From a virus, in IMG/VR virus record IMGVR_UViG_3300032069_000035, positions 1 through 33,549 of that record: a stretch of 33,549 nt of DNA; one strand, given 5' to 3'. Numbering within the stretch: the stretch's first letter is position 1; each line of letters begins with the position of its first letter. Under the pieces are notes generated by a model. That model saw nothing but the letters and a program-made list of their open reading frames with translations, was not told where the DNA came from and searched no databases. Shown in pieces: positions 1,312 to 33,306 of the stretch. The position numbers and the translations under genes were made by a program.

Positions 1312-2841
1312 GTGTACGATAAACAGAAAGCTGAAAAGGCAGTTAAATTTATTGAAAAGCTCAAACATACCAAAGGAAAATTCTACGGCAAAGACTTCGT
1401 GCTTTTACCTTGGGAGCGTGAGGTCATTGAGAAACTCTTTGGAAGCATCCAAGCTGACGGATATAGACAGTATCGTACGATCTATGTTAGCACGCCTAAG
1501 AAACAGGGCAAAAGCGAGATCGCCGCAGCGTTGGGACTCAAATGTTTATTAGCAGATGGAGAAATGGGTGGAGAAGTATACTGTTGCGCAGTCGACAGGG
1601 ATCAGGCTACTATGGTATTTGATGTAGCTGCTGAAATGGTAAGGCAAAATAAGGTGCTATTGAACCATTGTAAAATTAATGAATCTCGCAAGAGAATAAT
1701 TGTTCATAGTACCAATTCTTTTTTCCAGGTTCTCAGTTCTGAATCTCGTACAAAGCATGGGCTCAACCCTTCGTGTATTATCTTTGATGAGTTACATGCT
1801 CAACCGAATGACAAATTATGGAATGTTATGACGTATGATTCTCAAGTAACTCGTACTCAACCAATTCTTTTTGTTATTACTACTGCTGGAAATGATAAGC
1901 AAAGCATTTGTTATAAACAATATTCTTATGCCAAGAAAGTTCAAAAAGGACTCATAGAGGATCCGCATTACTTGCCGATTATTTATGAAGCTACTGAAGA
2001 AGAGGATTGGAACTCTCAAAAGGTTTGGGAGAAAGCGAATCCTTCTCTAGGACAGACAATTTCGATAGCTTCTATTAGGGCTAGTTATGATAAAGCAGTA
2101 GAGGTTCCCAGTGAAGAGAATCTTTTTAGACAGTATCGACTAAATCAATGGGTATCTCAAGAGACTAGGTGGATACCTATGAGTGTTTGGCTTAGCCAAG
2201 AAGAGCCAGTTTTTGAGGCTCAATTATTAGGTCAGACATGTTGGAGTGGGTTAGACCTTTCGAGTGTGTCAGATATTACTGCTTATTCATTACTCTTTCG
2301 AGATGGAAAAAAGATTAAAACAATTACTCGATGTTTTATACCAGAAGAAACTATGATTCGCAAGGAACGAGAAGATCATGTTCCGTATAGTTCATGGGAA
2401 AAATTAGGTTATATTATAAAGACTCGTGGCAACCGGATAGATTATGACATGGTAAAGAAGTGGATTTTTGATGATGCTAAGAAATTTCATATACAGCGAA
2501 TGGGCTTTGATCCTTGGAACTCTTCTCAAATGGTTCAAGATTTAATGGATGAAGGGATTGAAATGGTAGAAGTAAGACAAGGGTTTAAGTCTTTGAATCC
2601 TCCTACTAAGGAGTTTGAAGTCTTAGTAATGGAAGGAAATTTTATTCATGGGAATAATCCAGTATTGTCGAATCATTTTGATAATGTAACGCTTGAAATA
2701 GATGCGGCTGGTAATATAAAACCTTCTAAGGGTAAGTCTACTCAAAAGATAGATGCTTTGGTGGCTAACATTATTGGACTGGCTGTCATGGATAAAGAAG
2801 AGCGTAGCGTATATGAGGATCGAGGTGTTGCAACATTATGA
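1312..2841 (+). CDS. terL: Terminase large subunit (HK97-type packaging ATPase/nuclease)
   Basis: The 509-residue protein is the motor and nuclease that packs and cuts phage DNA at the portal. The N-terminal ATPase has a Walker A-like STPKKQGKS (residues 60-68) and Walker B CIIFDE (155-160) with the catalytic Glu. A C-terminal RNase H-like nuclease follows, with acidic residues in GLDLSSVSD (about 307-315) and near KIDALVA at the end. Length is typical. The start is uncertain: GTG 1312 is the first usual start in frame, but GGAGG at 1292-1296 lies 15 bases away and would suit an ATT at 1306 better. Its end overlaps the portal gene by four bases (ATGA). Confidence 0.95.
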   Translation: MYDKQKAEKAVKFIEKLKHTKGKFYGKDFVLLPWEREVIEKLFGSIQADGYRQYRTIYVSTPKKQGKSEIAAALGLKCLLADGEMGGEVYCCAVDRDQATMVFDVAAEMVRQNKVLLNHCKINESRKRIIVHSTNSFFQVLSSESRTKHGLNPSCIIFDELHAQPNDKLWNVMTYDSQVTRTQPILFVITTAGNDKQSICYKQYSYAKKVQKGLIEDPHYLPIIYEATEEEDWNSQKVWEKANPSLGQTISIASIRASYDKAVEVPSEENLFRQYRLNQWVSQETRWIPMSVWLSQEEPVFEAQLLGQTCWSGLDLSSVSDITAYSLLFRDGKKIKTITRCFIPEETMIRKEREDHVPYSSWEKLGYIIKTRGNRIDYDMVKKWIFDDAKKFHIQRMGFDPWNSSQMVQDLMDEGIEMVEVRQGFKSLNPPTKEFEVLVMEGNFIHGNNPVLSNHFDNVTLEIDAAGNIKPSKGKSTQKIDALVANIIGLAVMDKEERSVYEDRGVATL

Positions 2842-5800
2842 GATTAGGTAATCTCGAAATAAAACTTACTAAGAGAGAAGAGGCTCCTATCGCTTCTCTT
2901 GCTCAGGCAACTACAGACTTTCTGCAAGGGAATGACACTTCTGGCTTCACTTCCGCCGGTTCTTATATTGATCAGACAACAGCTTTAAATATCAGTGCAG
3001 TGCAAGCGTGTGTAAGAGTTCTAAGTGAAGATATAGGAATGTTGCCCGTAAAGGTATATAAAACTGTTAAAAATGGCAAGGAAGAAGATTCAACTCATCC
3101 GCTTTATTCAATTTTACACAATAAACCGAACGAATGGATGACTTCTTATGTATTTTATCGCCTTTTAATGCAACATTTGCTACTTTTTGGCAATTTTTAC
3201 TGTGAAATCATGTATAAAAAGGGTGAAATTGTAGGGCTTTTACCGATTCATCCCTCATTAGTTACAGTGAAAAGAACTCAAAATGGTAAGTATTTTTACG
3301 AAATTAGCATAGGTAATGTTAAGAAACTACTCCAATGGTACTACGTAATGCATGTTTTAGGTATGTCAGATGATGGAATAAATGGTTTAAACCCTATTGA
3401 AATGGCTCGGAAATCACTAGGTTTGAGCCTTGCTGCGGATACTTTTGGATCCAATTTTTTCGGGCAAGGTACAAATATGGGATTAGTTCTCGAACATCCA
3501 GGGAAACTAAGCACAACTGCACAGGACAATCTTAAAAAATCTATTGAACAAGAAAACGGTGGACTTTCTAATACTCATAAGATTTTAATTCTTGAAGAAG
3601 GCATGAAAGCAAACAAAAATGTGATTAATCCTAACGATTCGCAATTCCTGGAGTGTGTTATTCCTGGAACAAAAATATCAATGGCTGATGGATCGTTATG
3701 TTTTGTTGAAAATTTAAAAAAGGGTGATGAAGTTATTGCATGGGATAATGGTTTTAAGAAAGCATCTGTTGCAGAAGTAGGCGAAGCTAAGATAAAAAAT
3801 CTTGTTAAAATCAAAACTGCTAGAGGGAGAGAATTAACTGCTTCTTTCGACCACCCTTGTTTAGTATTGAAAAAACTTAGAACTGATGGAAACAGGATGA
3901 CTGACAGAATCCCTGAGTGGATACCAATAGGAGAATTAGAAATCGGGAATTATATTCGATCAGAAATAACGGGAAATCCTTTAGTGTTAGATTGTAATAT
4001 TGATAAAGGATGGTTAATTGGAGCTTTAACAGGTGATGGTTATGTAAGATCAATGGGATGCTCCTTCTCTTCTAACGAAAATGGCGTTTCGCTTAAAATG
4101 AAACAAGCGTTAATGGATTTAGGGGGAGACCTGAAAAAGAAATCTGGGGAAAACTGTGATTGGGAAATTGTAACAAAAGGTATAGGGAAAAGCGGTTCAA
4201 AAATAAGAACTTTTTTAAATGAGTCAGGGCTTATCGGAAAACACTCAGATACAAAAAGAGTTTCCAAAGATGTAATGACCAGTGGCTTTGATGTTTGGAG
4301 AGGATTTTTGTCAGGATATTTTGATACCGATGGTTCAATCCGTTCCATATATGGAAAACAAAAACCTTCTGCATATTGGAGTAGTGTTAGTAAAGGATTA
4401 TTGGAAGATTGCCAACACTTACTTTCAATGCTTGGAATCCAAAGTTCTATTTATAAAATGGGTAATGGTGGGAAGAAAACAATAATAGGAATAGAATGTA
4501 ATACATTAGAAGGTTGGGGTTTGTATGTTATAGGAATAGGAGAGTTGAGAAAACTTAGCAAAATTCTTGTTCTTTCTCATCAAGAAAAGAAAAAAAGATT
4601 AGAGGAATATAATAATTCTCTAAAAAGTAGATACACAAAAGAGAATTTTGAATATGACAGAATAATATCAGTAGAAAATATAGGAGAGGGACAAACTATT
4701 GGTATAGAAATAAAAGACTATCATACCTTTGTTACTAATGGCTTAGTGACTCATAATACTAGAAAGTTTCAGAAGGAAGATATTGCTACTTTATTCAGGG
4801 TTCCATTACATTTGATTCAAAGTTTAGACAAAGCTACAAATAATAATATTGAACATCAATCTTTAGATTATGTAACTCACTCGCTTTTACCGTGGATTAA
4901 GAATATTGAGCAAGCTATGATGAATTCCTTGTTTATTTATTACCCTGACACTTTCCCTGAATTTACAGTAGATGCTCTTTTAAGGGGTGATTTTAAAACT
5001 CGTATGGAAGGTTATAACTTAGGTATAGGGAATGGCATGTATTCGATAAACGAATGCCGTGCAAAAGAAAATATGAATCCAATAGAGAATGGTGACGAAC
5101 ATTATATTATGGTGAATAATATGGCTCCCATTAATACAGTAGGGCAAGAACAAACTCCAGTCCAAAAGAATGAAAAGTTAGAACAAGAAATGAAACCAGA
5201 AGAAAAGAAAATGGAAAAGAAGTCAATTGAAGAACCAATAGAACTACGAAATGACAATGGTATGTTACTGAAAGACTTAGCGATTCGCAAATCCGATGGT
5301 TTAAAAAGAAACTCAATTCGTAATAGTTTTATACCTGTTTTTGATGCAATAACGCTTGAAATTGTAAAGCGTGAACGTGCAGATATTATGCGATGTGTTG
5401 AAAAAAGACTTCAAACGAAACGACCAAAAGAAGAAATTATTAAAGGATGTGTAGAGACTTTTTATCTTACTCATCCCGAATACATAAAGAATAAAATGTC
5501 GGCTTTGGTTAAAGGATTAACTAGGGCTATAAATGATGCTGCTTCAGGTGAGATAAACGGTACAGGATTTACAGATGAGAAAATGCAAGGCTTTGTGGAT
5601 GATTTTACCGATAAGTATGCTACGAAATTTAATGAACGTTCCCAAGGTCAGGTTAGACAAATTGTAGAAGATTCTGAATATGGCGATATTAAAGGGAATT
5701 TAACGACTCGCTTTGATGAATGGTCATTGACTAGACCTGGCAAAACATCATTAGAGGTTACCGTACAACTAGCAGAAGCTGTAGCTGCAATGGTATTTTT

Positions 5801-5999
5801 TAGCAATTTATACAAGGTTCAATGGTCAACTACTTCTGAAAAGCCATGTCCTATCTGTGAAGAATTAAACGGAAAGATAATAACGGAGGGTGAAACTTTC
5901 GCTAAATCAGGCGATCAAATATTAGATTTGCAAGTGTATCAGGATAAGACGCATCCGCCTTTACATGAGGCGTGCCAGTGCGTGCTTATACCTGCGTGA
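2838..5999 (+). CDS. Portal protein with an in-frame intein, fused to a MuF-type head protein
   Basis: A single 1053-codon frame encodes three parts. Residues 1-272 and 641 to about 770 are an HK97-family portal, the ring through which DNA enters the head. Residues 273-640 are an intein that splits the conserved portal motif ending SQFLE and resuming TRKFQKEDIA. After a charged linker (about 770-805), residues about 825-1053 match the phage Mu gpF/SPP1 gp7-like head morphogenesis domain, with CPICEELNG (1004-1012) and HPPLHEACQC (1039-1048) as its metal-binding signature. After splicing, a 685-residue portal-MuF fusion would remain. Portal and MuF are usually two adjacent genes, so both the fusion and the intein are unusual, although each is known separately in phages. 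The next gene begins nine bases later. Confidence 0.93.
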   Translation: MRLGNLEIKLTKREEAPIASLAQATTDFLQGNDTSGFTSAGSYIDQTTALNISAVQACVRVLSEDIGMLPVKVYKTVKNGKEEDSTHPLYSILHNKPNEWMTSYVFYRLLMQHLLLFGNFYCEIMYKKGEIVGLLPIHPSLVTVKRTQNGKYFYEISIGNVKKLLQWYYVMHVLGMSDDGINGLNPIEMARKSLGLSLAADTFGSNFFGQGTNMGLVLEHPGKLSTTAQDNLKKSIEQENGGLSNTHKILILEEGMKANKNVINPNDSQFLECVIPGTKISMADGSLCFVENLKKGDEVIAWDNGFKKASVAEVGEAKIKNLVKIKTARGRELTASFDHPCLVLKKLRTDGNRMTDRIPEWIPIGELEIGNYIRSEITGNPLVLDCNIDKGWLIGALTGDGYVRSMGCSFSSNENGVSLKMKQALMDLGGDLKKKSGENCDWEIVTKGIGKSGSKIRTFLNESGLIGKHSDTKRVSKDVMTSGFDVWRGFLSGYFDTDGSIRSIYGKQKPSAYWSSVSKGLLEDCQHLLSMLGIQSSIYKMGNGGKKTIIGIECNTLEGWGLYVIGIGELRKLSKILVLSHQEKKKRLEEYNNSLKSRYTKENFEYDRIISVENIGEGQTIGIEIKDYHTFVTNGLVTHNTRKFQKEDIATLFRVPLHLIQSLDKATNNNIEHQSLDYVTHSLLPWIKNIEQAMMNSLFIYYPDTFPEFTVDALLRGDFKTRMEGYNLGIGNGMYSINECRAKENMNPIENGDEHYIMVNNMAPINTVGQEQTPVQKNEKLEQEMKPEEKKMEKKSIEEPIELRNDNGMLLKDLAIRKSDGLKRNSIRNSFIPVFDAITLEIVKRERADIMRCVEKRLQTKRPKEEIIKGCVETFYLTHPEYIKNKMSALVKGLTRAINDAASGEINGTGFTDEKMQGFVDDFTDKYATKFNERSQGQVRQIVEDSEYGDIKGNLTTRFDEWSLTRPGKTSLEVTVQLAEAVAAMVFFSNLYKVQWSTTSEKPCPICEELNGKIITEGETFAKSGDQILDLQVYQDKTHPPLHEACQCVLIPA
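3654..4757 (+). mobile_element. Intein with LAGLIDADG-type homing endonuclease, inside the portal gene
   Basis: This 368-residue intein runs from Cys273 to Asn640 of the precursor. Splicing blocks are visible: Cys1 followed by VIPGTKI, block B with SFDH (Ser in place of the usual Thr of TxxH), block F DYHTFVTN, and block G VTHN ending in the expected His-Asn, followed by extein Thr641 as the +1 nucleophile. Two dodecapeptide motifs of a homing nuclease lie between them, LIGALTGDG (393-401) and FLSGYFDTDG (490-499), each with an acidic residue at the catalytic place. All motifs look intact, so it should splice and could home into intein-less portal alleles. It interrupts one of the most conserved portal segments, as inteins usually do. 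Confidence 0.93.
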
Positions 6000-24215: not shown

Positions 24216-24243
24216 TTGATTTAATCGGGAATTATAGTAGAAT
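24216..24243 (+). promoter_or_regulatory. Promoter of leader copy 1
   Basis: TTGATT (24216-24221), a 16-base spacer and TAGAAT (24238-24243) lie right after the fibre stop codon. The 11 bases TTGATTTAATC are identical to those at the promoter of leader copy 3 (29932-29942). Transcription would start near A24250, the first base of the structured leader. Confidence 0.6.
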
Positions 24244-24249
24244 ATATCC

Positions 24250-24301
24250 ATGGAGTCTTGCCGTAATCAGAACTCCTAACTTATTACGGAGGTTAGAAAT
24301 G
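24250..24301 (+). ncRNA. SD-sequestering pseudoknot-type leader, copy 1 (orphan)
   Basis: GGAGTCTTG (24252-24260) pairs with CAGAACTCC (24268-24276), with one mismatch and one G-T pair; the whole loop CCGTAAT (24261-24267) is complementary to ATTACGG (24283-24289) after the linker TAACTT. That strand overlaps GGAGG (24288-24292), 6 bases before ATG 24299. The layout is the same as copies 2 and 3, but the downstream frame (24299-24337) is only 12 codons, so the HNH gene has been lost or never was here. No other gene lies between 24213 and 24435. Confidence 0.75.
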
Positions 24302-24337
24302 GAAAGAAGAAGCGTTTACAAGAAAGACTCAGGTTAG
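24299..24337 (+). pseudogene. 12-codon ORF left behind an orphan HNH-type leader
   Basis: The frame begins with the same ATGGAAAG as the two HNH genes that carry this leader, then diverges and stops after 12 codons. Another frame here reads to a stop at about 24362. It may be what remains after deletion of an HNH gene; a real leader peptide or sRNA role cannot be excluded. Confidence 0.4.
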
Positions 24338-24390
24338 AGCTGTGGCTAGTGCAAATAGTTAGTAATATTTAAAAATAGTTGTAAAATATT

Positions 24391-24416
24391 CTCAGGGGTC
24401 AGAAATGGCTCCTGAG
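24391..24416 (+). promoter_or_regulatory. 10-bp hairpin upstream of the 24436 gene
   Basis: CTCAGGGGTC (24391-24400) pairs with GGCTCCTGAG (24407-24416), including two G-T pairs, around the 6-base loop AGAAAT. The following bases are ATTTAAAAAAGG, with no T run, so termination is doubtful. It lies 8 bases before AAGGAGG of the next gene and may affect its translation or mark a processed 5' end. Confidence 0.45.
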
Positions 24417-24435
24417 ATTTAAAAAAGGAGGATGA

Positions 24436-26461: not shown

Positions 26462-26484
26462 AATTGGTATTTTTATGGTATAAT
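26457..26484 (+). promoter_or_regulatory. Extended -10 promoter of leader copy 2
   Basis: TGG directly before TATAAT (26479-26484) gives an extended -10 (TGnTATAAT). The -35 place at 26457-26462 (TTTTTA) is poor, which extended -10 promoters tolerate. Transcription would start near A26491, at the foot of the leader hairpin. Confidence 0.65.
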
Positions 26485-26490
26485 TAATCC

Positions 26491-26542
26491 ATGGAGCCAT
26501 GCCGTAATCATGGCTCCTAACTTATTACGGAGGTTGAAGATG
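26491..26542 (+). ncRNA. SD-sequestering pseudoknot-type leader, copy 2
   Basis: GGAGCCATG (26493-26501) and CATGGCTCC (26509-26517) form a perfect 9-base stem. The entire 7-base loop CCGTAAT (26502-26508) is complementary to ATTACGG (26524-26530) after the linker TAACTT. The last two G of that strand are the first two of GGAGG (26529-26533), 6 bases before ATG 26540. The hairpin plus loop pairing would form an H-type pseudoknot or two exclusive states; both bear on access to the ribosome binding site of the HNH gene. Confidence 0.85.
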
Positions 26543-27277
26543 GAAAGTTTATTTAAAGCAAAAAAGTGTTCTAAGTGCGGTCAAGAAAAAACCTTAGATC
26601 AGTTTTACAAAAATAAAAAATCACAGGATGGTTTTAAAGCTAGATGTAAAAAATGTGATCGTGATAATTTAAAATCAAATAAGAGGATTATTTTAACACC
26701 CAAGATTGGTTTTAAATATTGTTCAAAATGTAAACAAGAAAAATCGGTAGATCAATTTTCTATTCTTAAAACAACAAAAGATGAACTAAATTCCTGGTGC
26801 AGGGGATGCGTAAATAAGGGCGGAAGAGAAAGATACCAGAGAAACAAACAAAGAAAAAGAAAAGGAAAGAAAATATATGATAAAAGATACTATGAGAAAA
26901 ATAAAGAAAAGGTTCGGTATAAAGCAAAAAAATATTATCTCAAGAATAAGAGTAAAATGATAGCAAAAAATAAAGAATGGCGTAAAACAGAAAAAGGAAA
27001 AGCCCTTGGAATTAGAAACAATCATAAAAGAAAGGATTTGTTTAAAAATGCAATTTGTGACCTTACTGCCAAACAGTGGGAAGAAATCAAGAAAGCTCAG
27101 AATTATAAATGTGCTTATTGCGGAGAGACAAAACATCTTTACAGAGATCATATTGTACCAGTTTCTAAGGGCGGCGATTTAACTAAATCAAACATACAGG
27201 GTTTGTGCATTTCGTGTAATTCTAAAAAATCAAACAAAATTGATTCAACTGCTTTTACTCTGATCTTAAAATCTTAA
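26540..27277 (+). CDS. HNH endonuclease with two N-terminal zinc fingers
   Basis: The 245-residue protein has two zinc-finger-like repeats, KCSKCGQEKTLDQF...CKKC (about 9-39) and YCSKCKQEKSVDQF...CRGC (60-90), a long Lys-rich helix region (about 95-165) and a C-terminal HNH core: C191-x2-C194, D203-H204, N218 and C223-x2-C226. It is most likely a free-standing homing-type nuclease. It has its own promoter, structured leader and terminator, separate from the late operon. The frame is open upstream to 26435, but the ATG at 26540 has GGAGG at the right distance. The base composition is even more AA-rich than its neighbours, fitting a mobile gene. Confidence 0.88.
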   Translation: MESLFKAKKCSKCGQEKTLDQFYKNKKSQDGFKARCKKCDRDNLKSNKRIILTPKIGFKYCSKCKQEKSVDQFSILKTTKDELNSWCRGCVNKGGRERYQRNKQRKRKGKKIYDKRYYEKNKEKVRYKAKKYYLKNKSKMIAKNKEWRKTEKGKALGIRNNHKRKDLFKNAICDLTAKQWEEIKKAQNYKCAYCGETKHLYRDHIVPVSKGGDLTKSNIQGLCISCNSKKSNKIDSTAFTLILKS

Positions 27278-27332
27278 ATTTGTTTTTTCTTTTTTTTCAC
27301 GATTTCGGTATAATAATAGTACTTTTCTTTTG

Positions 27333-27361
27333 CTGGGGGATTTCGGTCTCCCAGTTTTTTT
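27333..27361 (+). terminator. Strong Rho-independent terminator
   Basis: CTGGGGGA (27333-27340) pairs with TCTCCCAG (27347-27354), one G-T pair, loop TTTCGG, followed by seven T (27355-27361). It ends the HNH cassette. A TATAAT at 27309-27314 lies only about 20 bases upstream; see findings. Confidence 0.88.
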
Positions 27362-27384
27362 ATTGATTTTTTTCATTTTATCTA

Positions 27385-27412
27385 TTGACATTGATTATTA
27401 ATTGCTTATACT
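27385..27412 (+). promoter_or_regulatory. Strong sigma-A promoter of the replication/accessory operon
   Basis: A perfect TTGACA (27385-27390), 16-base spacer and TATACT (27407-27412) lie between the terminator and the first gene of this operon. Transcription would begin near 27419, giving a short leader before AGGGGGA and ATG 27443. This is the best consensus promoter in the window. Confidence 0.8.
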
Positions 27413-27442
27413 TTGATTATGTTTTTAAAGAAAGGGGGAACG

Positions 27443-27604
27443 ATGAAAAGAGGCAAGTTTATAACAGTAGAGCTGACTCCGGAAGATCATAAAGAATTTA
27501 AAGCCTATTGTAAAAATCACCGGATGCCAGTAGCAACTTTTGTCAGGCAAATGATTCTGAAGTTATTGAAAGAAAGGGGGAAAAATGGCAAACTACTTAA
27601 CTGA
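27443..27604 (+). CDS. Ribbon-helix-helix DNA-binding protein
   Basis: The 53-residue protein reads as a short beta strand (KFITVELT) followed by two helices (PEDHKEFKAYCKNHR and VATFVRQMILKLLKE), the Arc/CopG ribbon-helix-helix plan. As the first gene behind the strongest promoter it may regulate this operon. A longer frame starts at 27413, but ATG 27443 has GGGGGAA 4-5 bases upstream. Its end overlaps the next gene by 20 bases. Confidence 0.75.
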   Translation: MKRGKFITVELTPEDHKEFKAYCKNHRMPVATFVRQMILKLLKERGKNGKLLN

Positions 27605-27785
27605 TCGTATTGCTGAGCTAGAGTTACAGATTTTGCATCTAGAAAATCGTTATGCAGGGTTGAAAAAATCCTTGTTGGAAGGTGCAGAATTTGATCGAAT
27701 GGATAAGGAGATTTGGAATGAGATTACAGCATATGAGAATGAATTAATTGATCTAAAAAATAGACAAAGAAAGGGTGAAAAATGA
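27585..27785 (+). CDS. Small coiled-coil protein
   Basis: The 66-residue protein is almost wholly helical and charged with heptad spacing (RIAELELQILHLENRYAGL, then IWNEITAYENELIDLKNRQ). It starts behind AAAGGGGG and ends overlapping the next start by four bases. No family is recognised; it may be a small partner of the adjacent DNA-related proteins. Confidence 0.75.
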   Translation: MANYLTDRIAELELQILHLENRYAGLKKSLLEGAEFDRMDKEIWNEITAYENELIDLKNRQRKGEK

Positions 27786-28678
27786 ACGAATTAGCGAAGT
27801 TTGAAGTACGTGAAAGTGATTTTGCAGACGATTTAGAGGGGATTACTCCTCGGTTGCAGAAAATTAAAATGCCACAAGGGACAGGTACTAGTTTCGAAAT
27901 GCCGAATGAAAATGGAGAATTTGACAGTATAAAAGAAGTTAAAGGAATAGTAATTGACAACCATCCATTTAACCTGTTTTTTTTGAAGCCCATGGGGTCA
28001 GGTGATCCTCCAGAATGTTGGTCGAACGATGGCAAGAAAGGCAAACTGGGAGAATGTAAAACTTGTAAGTATAATTTTGTAGATGCTGATCCGAGATGTT
28101 CCAACAAAAGAGCTTTATTTTTCATGTTGGAAGGGCGAGAATTTCCAATCGAACTAGATTTACCGCCTACTTCTTTAGGTTCTTGGGCGTGGTTTATCTC
28201 AAATTTATTGGCGACGAAATTAAATACTAAAATGATTGAGATTTCGGTAAAGCTGGAAACGGGAAAATCTAACGAGGGATTTCCTCATCCCAAATGTATA
28301 TTCACGATTTCAAAACATTTGAACCAAAGCGAGTACTTGGTCGCAATTACTTTATCAGATAAATTCCGGAATATTACCCGTGGATATGCGGAAGTTATTG
28401 AAAATGAGTTTGTACCTGAAATGGAAGAAAATCCAATCGGTAAACCTGATTTTAAACTATGCCAAGCAATCCTCTCAAAAACGGGCTACGACTCCAAAAA
28501 TCCAAATCGGCATCTTTTAAATCAGACAATCACGGGTATTCCGGAAAGTTCCAAATGGACAGAGAAAGAATGCAAGACGTTCCTGGATTATTGTGCATCC
28601 TTTTGTAATGGAGAAAAATATACCACAGAGGATTACAAAAATCTCAAAGATACATTTGACAAGTTGTGCGCGCAATGA
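27782..28678 (+). CDS. Phage replication-region protein with a Cys4 zinc site
   Basis: The 298-residue protein resembles a group of conserved phage proteins found near replication or recombination genes. It has a central cysteine set C79, C92, C95 and C106 (ECKTCKYNF then RCSNKR), followed by ALFFMLEGREFPIELDLPP and a helical segment SLGSWAWFISNLLATKL, a pattern I associate with that group. A single-strand DNA or replication-related function is possible but not shown. The C-terminal third (about 225-298) is helical. Start and stop overlap both neighbours. Confidence 0.75.
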   Translation: MNELAKFEVRESDFADDLEGITPRLQKIKMPQGTGTSFEMPNENGEFDSIKEVKGIVIDNHPFNLFFLKPMGSGDPPECWSNDGKKGKLGECKTCKYNFVDADPRCSNKRALFFMLEGREFPIELDLPPTSLGSWAWFISNLLATKLNTKMIEISVKLETGKSNEGFPHPKCIFTISKHLNQSEYLVAITLSDKFRNITRGYAEVIENEFVPEMEENPIGKPDFKLCQAILSKTGYDSKNPNRHLLNQTITGIPESSKWTEKECKTFLDYCASFCNGEKYTTEDYKNLKDTFDKLCAQ

Positions 28679-28887
28679 GCGATATAAGACTAACCGACAA
28701 AAAAGCAATCGTTGATGATCTCGAAACACAATGTATGTTGAAAGTTTCTATCCCGATGAAATTTACCAAAGAAGAATTGATTGATATAAGGACTGCATTT
28801 AAGCATTACATGGTCGATTATCAGGATACAAATACTGATTTATACAATAAAATTTGTGCAATGATCATAAAGGAGGAACAGAAGTGA
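28675..28887 (+). CDS. Small hypothetical protein
   Basis: The 70-residue protein starts at ATG 28675 in an ATGA overlap with the previous stop; no clear ribosome binding site precedes it, so translational coupling is likely. An in-frame GTG at 28666 is less likely. It is mixed helical with KFTKEELIDIRTAFKHYMVDY in its middle. Function unknown. Confidence 0.7.
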   Translation: MSDIRLTDKKAIVDDLETQCMLKVSIPMKFTKEELIDIRTAFKHYMVDYQDTNTDLYNKICAMIIKEEQK

Positions 28888-29366
28888 TCGACACCCTAGA
28901 AGATATTAAAGCTATTCAATCGGCTTATTTACCTTTGATCGAGGAATCCAGAATTAGAATGGCGTATGAAACCGGGAAAGTATGTTTTGAATTAATGCAA
29001 TCTATCAACAAAAATGGACTCATGGGGATAGAGGAACTACTTGAGCTTTGTGTAGATGAAACGGGACTCTCCAGAAATACCATAAATAATACTGCATTGC
29101 TTTATTCAAAATTAAAAGATTGGGAGATTAAGGGAGAGTTTAATTTCGATTTATTCGTTACTGAGTGGTATGCTGGTACTGGAAATCAACCAACAGTAGC
29201 TAAAATCTATCGAGTTATCCTACCCAAACCGCAAAAGTCAGATCGTGAATCTAAAAGGACCAACATTAAAAAGCAAATCGGGAAAGCTATGGAACAAGCA
29301 AATTATATTCACGTTCATTTAATGACGGACAATACCACTGTTCTAACACTGGACGAAGCAATATGA
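28884..29366 (+). CDS. Hypothetical helical protein of the replication operon
   Basis: The 160-residue protein starts at GTG 28884 with AGGAGG at 28871-28876. It is mostly helical; LSRNTINNTALLYSKLKDW (about 75-93) could be a helix-turn-helix-like part, and the C-terminus (HVHLMTDNTTVLTLDEAI) ends in strands. I do not recognise a family. Its stop overlaps the next small ORF. Confidence 0.72.
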   Translation: MIDTLEDIKAIQSAYLPLIEESRIRMAYETGKVCFELMQSINKNGLMGIEELLELCVDETGLSRNTINNTALLYSKLKDWEIKGEFNFDLFVTEWYAGTGNQPTVAKIYRVILPKPQKSDRESKRTNIKKQIGKAMEQANYIHVHLMTDNTTVLTLDEAI

Positions 29367-29503
29367 ACCTTGAAGATGAGATCGACTCCCTATTAATCCC
29401 TTTACGCTTAAAAGTAGCTAGAGAAGAGTATTGGCAACGAGAGAGAGACAAATTCATTGAATGTGAGGAAGAAAGGAAGGCGTTAAATGAATTGGGAATT
29501 TAG
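29363..29503 (+). CDS. 46-residue charged protein
   Basis: A short gene begins in an ATGA overlap with the previous stop and encodes 46 residues, mainly one charged helix (about 16-42, rich in Arg and Glu). It overlaps the start of the YopX-like frame at 29487. It is probably real because of the coupled overlap and even codon use, but no function can be assigned. Confidence 0.5.
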   Translation: MNLEDEIDSLLIPLRLKVAREEYWQRERDKFIECEEERKALNELGI

Positions 29504-29935
29504 GGGAAAAGCGTTAGAAGATGCTGTATTTTGCGGAGAATATATAGCTAAAAAAGATTCATGGGTTTATGGTTTTTTAATTGGTAGATATGACCCTTGC
29601 CAAAAAAAATAATTAAAAATGCTTTTATTGATAATGGAACATGTCTTGGTAATCCAATAAAGGTCAATCCTGCTACTGTTGGTCTCTGGACAGGTTTAAA
29701 CGATAAAAATGGATTAAAGATATTTGAAGGGGACAGAGTTGAATCTATTTGGAGAGTTTTAGAAGGTACTGTAAAGTTTGGTACATTTCATGAAATGTAT
29801 GAGAATATCTATACTGATTTACAACATGGTTTTTACGTTGAGGACGATAATGGAGATACGGGAAGCATTTATGGAGCTAATGGAGTAATATGGTTTGAAA
29901 TTATCGATTCTATCCATGATGAGCATTATGTTTGA
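29487..29935 (+). pseudogene. YopX-like protein, frameshifted at a poly-A run
   Basis: The first frame (29487-29612, 41 residues: MNWEFRGKALEDAV... SWVYGFLIGRYDP) and the second frame (read from about 29603 to 29935) together give one YopX-type protein; the second half has NPATVGLWTGLNDKNGLKI and FEGDRVE, the family core. The break is in eight A at 29602-29609: one lost A (nine expected) or a -1 slip on A_AAA_AAA would join them into ...DPCQKK-IIKNAFIDNG. AAGGAAGG precedes ATG 29487; the second frame has only a TTG at 29597 and no good site. It is a broken gene, a homopolymer sequencing error, or a programmed frameshift. YopX-type proteins are common in phages and of unknown function. Confidence 0.8.
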
Positions 29936-29959
29936 TTTAATCACAAAAAATAGTATAAT
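29932..29959 (+). promoter_or_regulatory. Promoter of leader copy 3
   Basis: TTGATT (29932-29937), a 16-base spacer and TATAAT (29954-29959) lie across and after the stop codon of the YopX-like frame. The -35 block TTGATTTAATC equals that of copy 1. Transcription would start near A29967, at the foot of the leader hairpin. Confidence 0.7.
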
Positions 29960-29966
29960 ATCTTAC

Positions 29967-30020
29967 ATGGGAACAGTGCCAGTACCATTGTTCCCTAACC
30001 TGTACTGGAGGTGTAAGATG
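29967..30020 (+). ncRNA. SD-sequestering pseudoknot-type leader, copy 3
   Basis: GGGAACAGTG (29969-29978) pairs with CATTGTTCCC (29986-29995), ten pairs with one G-T. The 7-base loop is now CCAGTAC (29979-29985), and the downstream strand is GTACTGG (30002-30008), again perfectly complementary, after the 6-base linker TAACCT. GGAGG at 30007-30011 overlaps it and lies 6 bases before ATG 30018. Stem and loop both differ from copies 1 and 2 with compensating changes, which is direct evidence for both helices. Confidence 0.87.
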
Positions 30021-30581
30021 GAAAGTTTATTTGAGATAACAAAAAAATGTTCTAAGTGTGGTCAAGAAAAACCATTAGATCAATTTTATAAATACAAAAA
30101 AGCCAAAGATAGGTTGAACTATTGGTGTAAAGAATGTTCGAATGCACAGCAAATAGAATGGAGAAAAGCAAACAGAAAAAAACGTTGTGAATATTCTTCC
30201 AGATGGAGAAGCAAAAACTATCAAAAAAACAAAAGGTACAATATCAAATATATAGAAACATGGAGAATTTCTCCACAAGGAATTATATCAATAGCAAAAA
30301 CTAGAATCAAAAGGGAAAAGGCATATAAAAACATTATTAATGATTTAACTTTAAATGATTGGCTAAAGATAAAAAAAGCACAGGACTACAAATGTGCATA
30401 TTGTGGGGAAAAAGAACCAGAAATAAAACTTACCATGGATCATATTATACCGTTATCAAAAAAGGGACATCATACAAAAAACAATATTCAGGGTTTATGT
30501 TGTTCTTGTAATAGCAAAAAGAACAACCGTATAGATTCTACTGCTATGGAATTAATTTTAAATCAGGAGGTGAACCCATGA
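30018..30581 (+). CDS. HNH endonuclease with one N-terminal zinc finger
   Basis: The 187-residue protein is a relative of the 26540 gene: both start MESLF and share KCSKCGQEKxLDQFYK. Here only one finger is present (C11, C14, C37, C40), then a basic linker and the HNH core: C126-x2-C129, D141-H142, N156 and C161-x2-C164, followed by NSKKNNRIDSTA, also shared. It is inserted within the replication operon behind its own promoter and leader. Its stop overlaps the next gene (ATGA). The ATG at 30018 is chosen because of GGAGG and the match to copy 2; in this copy the leader also reads in frame, which is probably accidental. Confidence 0.88.
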   Translation: MESLFEITKKCSKCGQEKPLDQFYKYKKAKDRLNYWCKECSNAQQIEWRKANRKKRCEYSSRWRSKNYQKNKRYNIKYIETWRISPQGIISIAKTRIKREKAYKNIINDLTLNDWLKIKKAQDYKCAYCGEKEPEIKLTMDHIIPLSKKGHHTKNNIQGLCCSCNSKKNNRIDSTAMELILNQEVNP

Positions 30582-31346: not shown

Positions 31347-32929
31347 CCGGTTTTTTAGAGCAAGCACTAGAATACAAGGTTAAATATGGTTTTAATGTGT
31401 TCCCATGCGGTAAAGACAAAAAACCATTGGTCGAAACTTGGTTACCATATCAAACAGAAAAGGTTGAAGATCGCCAAATCATTGAATGGTGGGAGAAGAA
31501 CCCGGAAGCTAATATTGCAGTAGTCACAGGCAACATTTCGAATTTAGCAGTAATAGATATTGATTCGAAAGAAGGCGAGACCTGTTTATTAGAGAAATTC
31601 CCTGAGATAGATTTAGTCAACAATCCAGTAGTAGACACTCCTAGAGGTGGCAAGCATATTTATTTTCAATGCCAGGATGAGGAATTAAGAAACGGAGTCA
31701 ATACGATCAAAGGGTGTGATTTCAGGGCAAATGGCGGTTATGTTGTAGCACCCCCCAGCATTAGCGGGACAGGAAAGCAGTACGTTTGGAAAAATCCTTT
31801 GACAGCAAATCGCAATATTCTTCCTTCTTCTTATGCATTATATATTAAGAGCTCTAACTCTTATAAGCAAAATGTTACGCAAAATGTTACGCTCTTCCAA
31901 AAGGGTACAAGAGACAATGACGTTTTTCACACTGGTCATCAACTTAAGAAGGCTGGCTCGTCAAATGAAGAAATAAGACAGACTATGTATTTAATTGGAA
32001 GAAGCTGTAACCCTCCATTACAAGATGCTGAGATAGAGATAAAATATCAATCCGTCATAAAATTCAATGAGCGTAAAGATATGAATATCACTGAGTTTGT
32101 GGAAAATTGGATTTCGCAAACCGATGGAGCCTTTACAATCGTCGAGTGTAACAAAAGCGTAACACAGTGTAACATTGCGTCACAAAATACAAATCTAAGA
32201 ATGATATTTAAAAGATTGAAAGAAAAAGGCTTTATATCTAAGTTTGGAGAAAAAGACGGATATTATGTAAGGGTAGACGACAAGGCAGACGATATTGATT
32301 GGTTGACAGCTCCTACAGACCCGATCAACGTAGTTTATCCTCTAGGTATTGAGCTTTTATTTCAAACCTATCCTAAAAACATTATTGTTATTGCTGGTGT
32401 ACCTGATGCTGGAAAAACCGCTTTTCTTTTAAATTTTGTTCGGATGAATATGGATCTTTTTGATATTCATTATTTCAGTTCAGAAATGGGAGCGATGGAA
32501 TTTAAAAACCGATTAAGTAAATTTCGAGGGATTAATTTAGAAGACTGGAAGTTTAAAGCAAAAGAACGATGCATTGATTTTCATAATGTAATTCAACCCA
32601 ATGCGATTAATATCATTGATTTTTTGGAAATGTCCGATAATTTTTATAAAATATCTGGATATTTTCAAGAGATCCACAATAAACTCCAAAAAGGTATTGC
32701 TATTATTGCTATCCAGAAGAATCCTGGTACTGAGGTTGGACTTGGTGGATATAGAGGAATGGAGAAGCCTAGATTGTATTTAAACATGGACAGGGGGAAA
32801 ATAAAAATAACAAAAGCGAAAAACTGGAGAACTGATATATGCCCTAGCGGTTTATGCTTAGATTTTAAAATTGTTCAGGGCTGTGAATTTATAGTATCAA
32901 ATGATTGGTACAAGGAAGGTGGCAAATGA
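31343..32929 (+). CDS. Primase-polymerase/RecA-like ATPase replication protein
   Basis: The 528-residue protein joins three parts. Residues 1 to about 165 are a primase-polymerase (bifunctional DNA primase/polymerase) domain with VIDIDS (D72, D74), RGGKHIYF (H105) and CDFRANGGYVVAPPS. Residues about 188-245 are a PriCT-like helical part. After a winged-helix-like segment (about 250-312), a RecA-type ATPase has Walker A GVPDAGKT (352-359) and a likely Walker B at INIIDF. It should prime, and perhaps unwind, phage DNA. ATG 31343 is preferred over ATG 31325 because of AGGGA at 31332-31336; the earlier ATG is inside an iteron. Its own linkers contain further iterons. Confidence 0.88.
   Translation: MTGFLEQALEYKVKYGFNVFPCGKDKKPLVETWLPYQTEKVEDRQIIEWWEKNPEANIAVVTGNISNLAVIDIDSKEGETCLLEKFPEIDLVNNPVVDTPRGGKHIYFQCQDEELRNGVNTIKGCDFRANGGYVVAPPSISGTGKQYVWKNPLTANRNILPSSYALYIKSSNSYKQNVTQNVTLFQKGTRDNDVFHTGHQLKKAGSSNEEIRQTMYLIGRSCNPPLQDAEIEIKYQSVIKFNERKDMNITEFVENWISQTDGAFTIVECNKSVTQCNIASQNTNLRMIFKRLKEKGFISKFGEKDGYYVRVDDKADDIDWLTAPTDPINVVYPLGIELLFQTYPKNIIVIAGVPDAGKTAFLLNFVRMNMDLFDIHYFSSEMGAMEFKNRLSKFRGINLEDWKFKAKERCIDFHNVIQPNAINIIDFLEMSDNFYKISGYFQEIHNKLQKGIAIIAIQKNPGTEVGLGGYRGMEKPRLYLNMDRGKIKITKAKNWRTDICPSGLCLDFKIVQGCEFIVSNDWYKEGGK
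31873..31890 (+). repeat. Two TGTTACG iterons inside the primase gene
   Basis: TGTTACG starts at 31873 and 31885, 12 bases apart and in the same direction as the main array. They encode NVTQNVT in the linker between the primase-polymerase and PriCT-like parts, where protein sequence is probably free to vary. Confidence 0.65.
32148..32174 (-). repeat. Three inverted iterons inside the primase gene
   Basis: GTAACA, the reverse complement of TGTTAC, occurs at 32148, 32159 and 32169, spaced 11 and 10 bases. The cluster lies in the second interdomain region (residues about 269-278) and has the same helical phasing as the main array, in opposite direction. Confidence 0.65.
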
Positions 32930-33306
32930 GCGATAAATATTATTGTAACCATTGTGGAGATGAAACAGAAGGATTAATCATAGAATCTAAACCGCCGCAC
33001 GATAAGCAAATAGTTTGTAGTGTTTGCAACCGGTGGATTAAATACCTGCCAAAAGAAAAGAACCTAGACAGAAGAGTCAAAAATAGATATAAACCGGTTG
33101 ATTTGGGCGTAGATCATTGCGAGTTATGTTTGCGAAAAAAAGAAATGCTGGGAAAGTACGAATGTCTAATCATTCATCATAAAATACCTATCGAAGAAGG
33201 CGGCTTGGATGTTAAAGAGAATTGTTTGGTTGTATGCTCCAAATGTCATTCTGAAATACATCACAATATTACTTATTTGAGAGATCATTTTACAAAGGAG
33301 AAATGA
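32926..33306 (+). CDS. HNH endonuclease with N-terminal zinc ribbon
   Basis: The 126-residue protein starts in an ATGA overlap with the primase stop. An N-terminal CNHC...CSVC ribbon (about 8-41) is followed by CELCLRKK (about 66-73), the HH pair in LIIHHKIPIEEGG, N in KENCLVV and CSKCHSEIHH, the HNH core. Unlike the 26540 and 30018 genes it has no private leader and is part of the operon. It may serve packaging, recombination or homing. Confidence 0.85.
   Translation: MSDKYYCNHCGDETEGLIIESKPPHDKQIVCSVCNRWIKYLPKEKNLDRRVKNRYKPVDLGVDHCELCLRKKEMLGKYECLIIHHKIPIEEGGLDVKENCLVVCSKCHSEIHHNITYLRDHFTKEK

Follow-up and report, generated by a model that had tools for sequence, protein, structure and literature searches.

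The 33,549-nt viral DNA stretch of IMG/VR record IMGVR_UViG_3300032069_000035 (hereafter the window, meaning that whole stretch) carries three copies of a small structured leader which, judged from sequence, is a member of a previously uncatalogued RNA family that recurs in dozens of phages, unrelated to one another and for the most part uncultured. We consider it probable, at roughly three chances in four, that this leader is a cis-acting RNA that travels with free-standing phage homing endonuclease genes and limits their translation. Covariation establishes that its first stem (S1) forms in the messenger RNA (mRNA), that the whole loop of this hairpin pairs with a strand adjoining the Shine-Dalgarno sequence (SD), and that a CCU/AGG helix is also formed.

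The three leaders start at positions 24252, 26493 and 29969, all on the plus strand, and share the exact geometry described in the first-pass annotation of the window: a hairpin with a 7-nt loop (loop 1), a 6-nt linker, a 7-nt strand that is complementary to the entire loop and runs into GGAGG, and a 6-nt spacer followed by ATGGAAAG. In copy 1, S1 (GGAGTCTTG / CAGAACTCC; 24252–24276) encloses loop 1 CCGTAAT (24261–24267) and is followed by linker TAACTT and by strand ATTACGG at 24283–24289. Copy 2 has S1 GGAGCCATG / CATGGCTCC at 26493–26517, the same loop at 26502–26508, linker TAACTT at 26518–26523, and strand ATTACGG (26524–26530), which together with AGG spans 26524–26533 and includes the SD GGAGG (26529–26533). 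In copy 3, S1 (GGGAACAGTG / CATTGTTCCC; 29969–29995) surrounds loop CCAGTAC (29979–29985), the linker is TAACCT (29996–30001), and strand GTACTGG (30002–30008) plus AGG occupies 30002–30011, with the SD at 30007–30011. The stems had been described as 9–10 bp long, which is correct as geometry; that of copy 1 is, however, not uninterrupted, one C-A mismatch leaving 8 of its 9 pairs. Between copies 2 and 3, both sides have changed in 4 of the 7 loop-strand pairs and in two S1 pairs. A strict descriptor (S1 of at least 8, pairing of 7) found no match in 40 Markov-shuffled windows.

An exact pattern with the fixed linker and ATGGAAAG had no match in IMG/VR, and a looser version retrieved 12 unrelated stretches. 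Since the exact searches came back empty, we turned to patterns that fix few S1 and SD bases and are silent on loop pairing, the pairing being tested afterwards. The first such pattern matched 101 stretches, two of which (L144 and L086) showed perfect pairing; L144 is a GC-rich contig, and its leader stands ahead of an HNH gene. A pattern with loop CCGTAAT retrieved L144, L171, L161, L181 and L163, every one ahead of a nuclease-like gene. The pooled set holds at least 70 leaders with 42 different loops in 51 sequence stretches, not all of which are independent contigs, and it is a lower bound on family size, the pattern scans favouring loop start CC and inner stem GTG/CAC. The first-pass annotation had made its idea depend on covarying homologues elsewhere, and these leaders supply them. 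Across the family both the length of S1 and the distance from loop to strand (13–21 nt) vary, the exact 6-nt linker being limited to the window copies. Loop 1 usually reads CCNNNNN, its partner strand NNNNNGG overlaps or directly abuts the SD, and the start codon follows 6–13 nt past the strand, usually 7–10 nt. Four phage contigs (L284, L255, L214 and L290) each bear 2 to 5 leaders, with mostly different loops.

With the general pattern silent on loop pairing, the free 5-mers were fully Watson-Crick complementary in 32 of the 86 distinct IMG/VR matches listed, where shuffling expects 0.7. Of the 45 matches to a stricter loop-silent pattern, also run on IMG/VR, 34 were fully complementary, with 25 different loops (shuffles: mean 1.3, maximum 6). 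The remaining 11 had three or fewer matching positions and none had four; loop pairing in this set is free of any wobble or mismatch. Covariance model R2, built without the loop pairing, found further copies, among them four with fully complementary 6-nt loops (loop/strand CCGATT/AATCGG, CTGCAA/TTGCAG, CTCGTA/TACGAG and CTCCAA/TTGGAG). As both 6/6 and 7/7 lengths occur among the R2 copies, the lengths of loop and strand change together. In a 45-sequence alignment, 19 of 22 pairs have both-sided changes and the covariation score is 0.567, against 0.145 for shuffled and at most 0.121 for slid alignments; S1 and the loop-strand helix are paired in more than 98% of cells, and 14 of the 15 pairs in these two helices vary on both sides. 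Members of this alignment were chosen partly by S1 and loop pairing, so that the unbiased evidence consists of the pattern statistics and the R2 copies (E-values of the covariance models come from a shortened calibration). At the S1 positions left free in the pattern, 18 G-U wobbles occur and no A-C mismatch, identifying the pairing strand as the mRNA. The earlier proposal of a selected RNA pairing between loop and SD region, which covers the SD, thus receives strong support from pattern statistics, loop-length covariation and wobbles.

The genes behind the leaders are predominantly nucleases. Pfam searches with 44 downstream proteins yielded Endonuclease_7, HNH, HNH_5, NUMOD3, GIY-YIG and MUG113, and PHROGs assigned downstream proteins to homing endonuclease, HNH endonuclease and endonuclease VII, with 22 further proteins in agreement. 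By a nuclease motif rule devised for this analysis, the next open reading frame (ORF) of at least 80 aa is a nuclease in 43 of 57 cases, whereas among the other ORFs preceded by an SD on those contigs the rule picks out 8 of 214 (Fisher 1e-29). Reading of the sequences indicates that about 58–60 of the 70 leaders precede a nuclease or a nuclease piece, the others being six in a GC-rich group, two at a contig end and two with very short ORFs. In the window, copy 2 is followed by an HNH endonuclease gene at 26540–27277 (plus strand; 245 aa, HNH_5 and HNH domains) and copy 3 by another at 30018–30581 (plus strand; 187 aa), their products being 68% identical in the first 40 residues and 47% across a longer overlapping stretch. 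The ORF after copy 1 (24299–24337, plus strand; MERRSVYKKDSG) has only 12 codons and is possibly a remnant, so this copy does not head an intact HNH gene; a decayed HNH gene was considered for it and rejected, no significant similarity to the HNH genes being detected. The description of the element as a leader of HNH nuclease genes therefore holds for copies 2 and 3, fails for copy 1, and proves too narrow for the family, in which endonuclease VII, GIY-YIG and NUMOD3-type genes are headed too.

Such sharing among unrelated nuclease folds makes recognition by the nuclease itself unlikely, and the earlier suggestion that the leader is a target for the HNH protein loses its footing. It also counts against a role at the DNA level, in which nested inverted repeats would serve as a binding site for a repressor or as the cleavage target of the nuclease. 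The sequences do form inverted repeats in DNA, and some copies have their stems shortly after a −10 element. We nevertheless judge this role very improbable, given the strand asymmetry of the wobbles (18 GT against 0 AC), the freedom of the loop sequences, and a fixed position before start codons that coincides with the SD and points to mRNA.

The first-pass annotation presented the leader as a simple pseudoknot. An H-type pseudoknot, in which a hairpin loop pairs with a strand outside it, is indeed what the support for both helices indicates, but a third helix, S3, had been missed, by virtue of which the leader equally reads as two adjacent hairpins with equal, complementary loops. In S3 the 3' end of the linker pairs with the AGG-containing bases after the strand, over 7, 6 and 4 bp in window copies 1 to 3: positions 24276–24282 with 24290–24296 in copy 1, enclosing ATTACGG; the linker TAACTT with 26531–26536 in copy 2; and ACCT of the linker with AGGT at 30009–30012 in copy 3. 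Because S3 encloses the strand, the strand is also the loop of a second hairpin (loop 2), equal in length to loop 1, and both complementary strands are hairpin loops, as in a kissing-loop pair. The three bases ahead of the strand are nearly always CCU (sometimes UCU) and pair with the following AGG (AGA); the third pair changes from C-G to U-A in eight members. S3 reaches 5–8 bp in L144, L171, L181, L220 and L251, and it does so in several copies found without imposing it. Because CYT and GGAGG were fixed in one family of patterns, the first three S3 pairs count as evidence only in members found otherwise (e.g. L144, L161, L171, L181, some L284 copies and the window copies), and beyond 3 bp S3 showed no enrichment in the pattern sets.

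The junction between S1 and S3 is often 0–3 nt, and the two helices together often fill the entire distance between the loops; S1, loop pairing and a full-length S3 can thus hardly all exist in one molecule. Probably the RNA alternates between a pseudoknot (S1 plus loop pairing) and two adjacent hairpins (S1 plus S3), which on these sequence features is likelier than a kissing dimer. The dimer would arise if loop 1 of one mRNA paired with loop 2 of another, so that repression rose with mRNA concentration. Fully complementary loops of 6 or 7 nt do resemble the geometry of ColE1 RNAI/RNAII and TAR/TAR*, and the short S1-S3 linkers disfavour pairing in cis; the effective concentration is, however, far higher for intramolecular pairing, and we regard the trans arrangement as quite unlikely. 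ColE1 RNAI/RNAII are kissing hairpins whose loops are complementary throughout, and the leader likewise has two hairpins with 7-nt (6-nt) loops complementary along their full length, but in the leader a single mRNA carries both loops, separated by little, and the SD lies within loop 2 or directly next to it.

Alternation between the two states raises a real though lesser possibility, namely a regulated switch in which pseudoknot and S3 hairpin exchange when triggered, be it by ribosome transit, by a factor of host or phage or by temperature, and expose the SD at a defined point in the infection. Two conserved helices compete for one SD strand, and linkers of 0–3 nt hinder their coexistence, as a switch would have it. 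Part of the SD is nevertheless covered in either state. No conserved unpaired bases that might serve a ligand or a protein occur in the leader alignment, the linker being variable except for the paired CCU, which argues against a ligand. Nor does the flanking sequence, for about 80 nt in each direction, contain a further copy of loop 1 or loop 2 that could compete for pairing (L290:8180 is the one exception, a coincidence), which argues against a simple cis switch. Opening by ribosomes in transit to an adjacent upstream stop codon was ruled out as a general mechanism, since the gaps to upstream stop codons are mostly 31–36 nt or more.

A translation-limiting cis leader remains the reading that we prefer. 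The loop would cover GG and the CCU would cover AGG, hiding most or all of GGAGG, and both the pseudoknot and the two-hairpin state would leave the SD at least partly covered. Binding of the 30S subunit would be hindered, and nuclease output would be low and set by the leader rather than by the insertion site. For T4 I-TevI and Aeh1 mobE, translation is limited by RNA structures that cover the SD (PMC2988022), a precedent that makes a translation limit reasonable here. Several points weigh against this reading. Lowered translation through SD hiding is a function that we infer from the pairing, and the joint geometry of all three helices is left unexplained. Pseudoknot-free in silico folding finds S1 alone to be strong, with modest z-scores (−1.7, −1.0 and −0.7), and folds copy 1 differently. 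Finally, the GC-rich group (L086, L224, L235, L267/L289, L355 and L361) has no nuclease next and odd or no start codons, standing before replication-type genes or no clear ORF. Within that group, the L224 leader lies ahead of a helix-turn-helix replication-type gene starting at TTG, that of L361 ahead of a DUF1376-like frame without an ATG, GTG or TTG start (perhaps ACG), and L235 and L267 have in common a conserved downstream stretch without a clear ORF.

The closest known counterparts are the T4-type structures (I-TevI, I-TevII, I-TevIII, segB and Aeh1 mobE), in which the SD of a homing endonuclease gene is likewise covered and translation limited (PMC2988022), as we suppose for the present leader. 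Base pairing of a homing endonuclease SD in the mRNA is supported here by covariation. In the T4-type cases the SD lies inside a stable secondary structure, whereas here one loop and the CCU clamp would cover it; there a late promoter yields a transcript lacking part of the structure, whereas the predicted promoters of the window leaders would yield the full leader. No late promoter giving transcripts without the 5' half was found, the −10 boxes preceding the whole stem in the window and in 10 of 49 family members. By this comparison the leader would act like the T4 homing-endonuclease hairpins, yet is a different RNA with its own conserved architecture.

A separate sigma-70 promoter appears to serve each window copy, with the transcript starting at the hairpin. 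The putative promoter of copy 1 (24216–24243, plus strand; TTGATT-16-TAGAAT) ends 8 nt before the stem, and its region has TTGATTTAATC in common with copy 3, whose candidate promoter (29932–29959, plus strand; TTGATT-16-TATAAT) ends 9 nt before the stem. Copy 2 has an extended −10 element, TGG-TATAAT (TATAAT at 26479–26484, plus strand), 8 nt before its stem. As a sigma-70-type −10 element (TAGAAT, TATAAT, TATAAT) is found 8–9 nt upstream of all three stems, the leader RNA probably begins at the hairpin. In the family, the 10 members with −10 boxes have them 4–13 nt before S1, against 1.6 expected. Since the window transcripts are predicted to open with the hairpin, it could serve mainly to protect the mRNA 5' end or to direct processing, its overlap with the SD being incidental. 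S1 alone would suffice for that, however, which leaves the full loop-SD pairing and the CCU clamp without a purpose, and in many members the hairpin lies 31–36 nt past the upstream stop codon with no evident promoter between; protection or processing is in our view decidedly unlikely.

An additional hairpin, H0, occurs in about 25 leaders between the upstream stop codon and S1, within about 50 nt of S1. Its stems are variable and a few loops recur (TTGC, TAGC, CTTATAA, CCTCGAA and CTTGATCA); bearers include L163, L204, L209, L227, L236, L255, L262, L284 and L290. A hairpin at 24390–24417 of the window (TCTCAGGGGTCA-GAAA-TGGCTCCTGAGA), past the 12-codon ORF of copy 1 and ahead of the SD of the next gene, has a core similar to H0.

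The window and eight family loci gave no leader match at the gathering score in Rfam 15, only weak chance matches, and no description of this leader was found in the open-access literature. In these sources, the earlier statement that no named RNA family has this design is borne out. The T4 gene 32 autoregulatory leader and the rpsO leader are H-type pseudoknots at ribosome-binding sites and are protein-specific and autoregulatory. In them too the loop of a hairpin is paired to sequence further downstream, close to the ribosome-binding site, whereas the present design, lacking conserved unpaired bases, is common to many unrelated genes. The PreQ1-I and SAM-II riboswitches are pseudoknots that hide the SD and likewise hold the SD strand within a pseudoknot helix, but they differ from the leader in its lack of conserved unpaired aptamer bases and of an Rfam match. 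HEARO (OMEGA/IscB) RNA, the much larger guide RNA of the RNA-guided IscB, is also a structured RNA beside a gene for an HNH-containing protein; the leader is small and matches no Rfam entry.

Other searches retrieved no further carriers. HNH protein searches of IMG/VR and GTDB genomes found distant nucleases, none with a leader, and direct DNA searches of phage isolates gave nothing useful; a Lactococcus PMBT69 match was discarded as having no leader. On fifteen isolate records, the covariance model produced a marginal match to RHph_TM3_3_14B alone (E 0.009), with no convincing loop pair. The isolate searches thus found no cultured phage bearing the leader, and 289 + 194 cellular genomes from two phyla contained none under stricter filters and with no positive control. 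The window holds a further homing element, a portal gene with an intein (2838–5999; Phage_portal, then Intein_splicing and LAGLIDADG_3), and two more HNH-like ORFs without a leader (32905–33306 and 270–710, the second weak and below the Pfam cut-off). Elsewhere, 19 transfer RNA genes cluster beside leader-bearing nuclease genes in L214 (4964–9784). GIY-YIG-like genes of Synechococcus phage S-SRM01 (L308, 2983–3741) and phage B23 (L309, 2995–3618), which a GIY-YIG protein matched in tblastn, carry the annotation 'translation initiation factor 2'.

Few selfish genes are as common in phages as those for homing endonucleases, and control of their expression is known mainly for T4-like phages. That one leader precedes several unrelated nuclease families, in phages of low and of high GC content, suggests that they share a portable solution, and the leader offers a sequence handle for locating homing genes in unannotated viromes. 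Its loop takes almost any sequence provided that the partner follows, which makes for easy testing by compensatory mutations and for an attractive orthogonal part for translation control. More speculatively, the leader may be a modular RNA that spread horizontally and was adopted by unrelated mobile nucleases, its complementary 6–7-nt loops locking the SD twice until opened by an infection signal, or else acting as a dose-dependent brake between mRNAs. If true, selfish genes across phages would have in common a natural valve for translation that is sequence-orthogonal.

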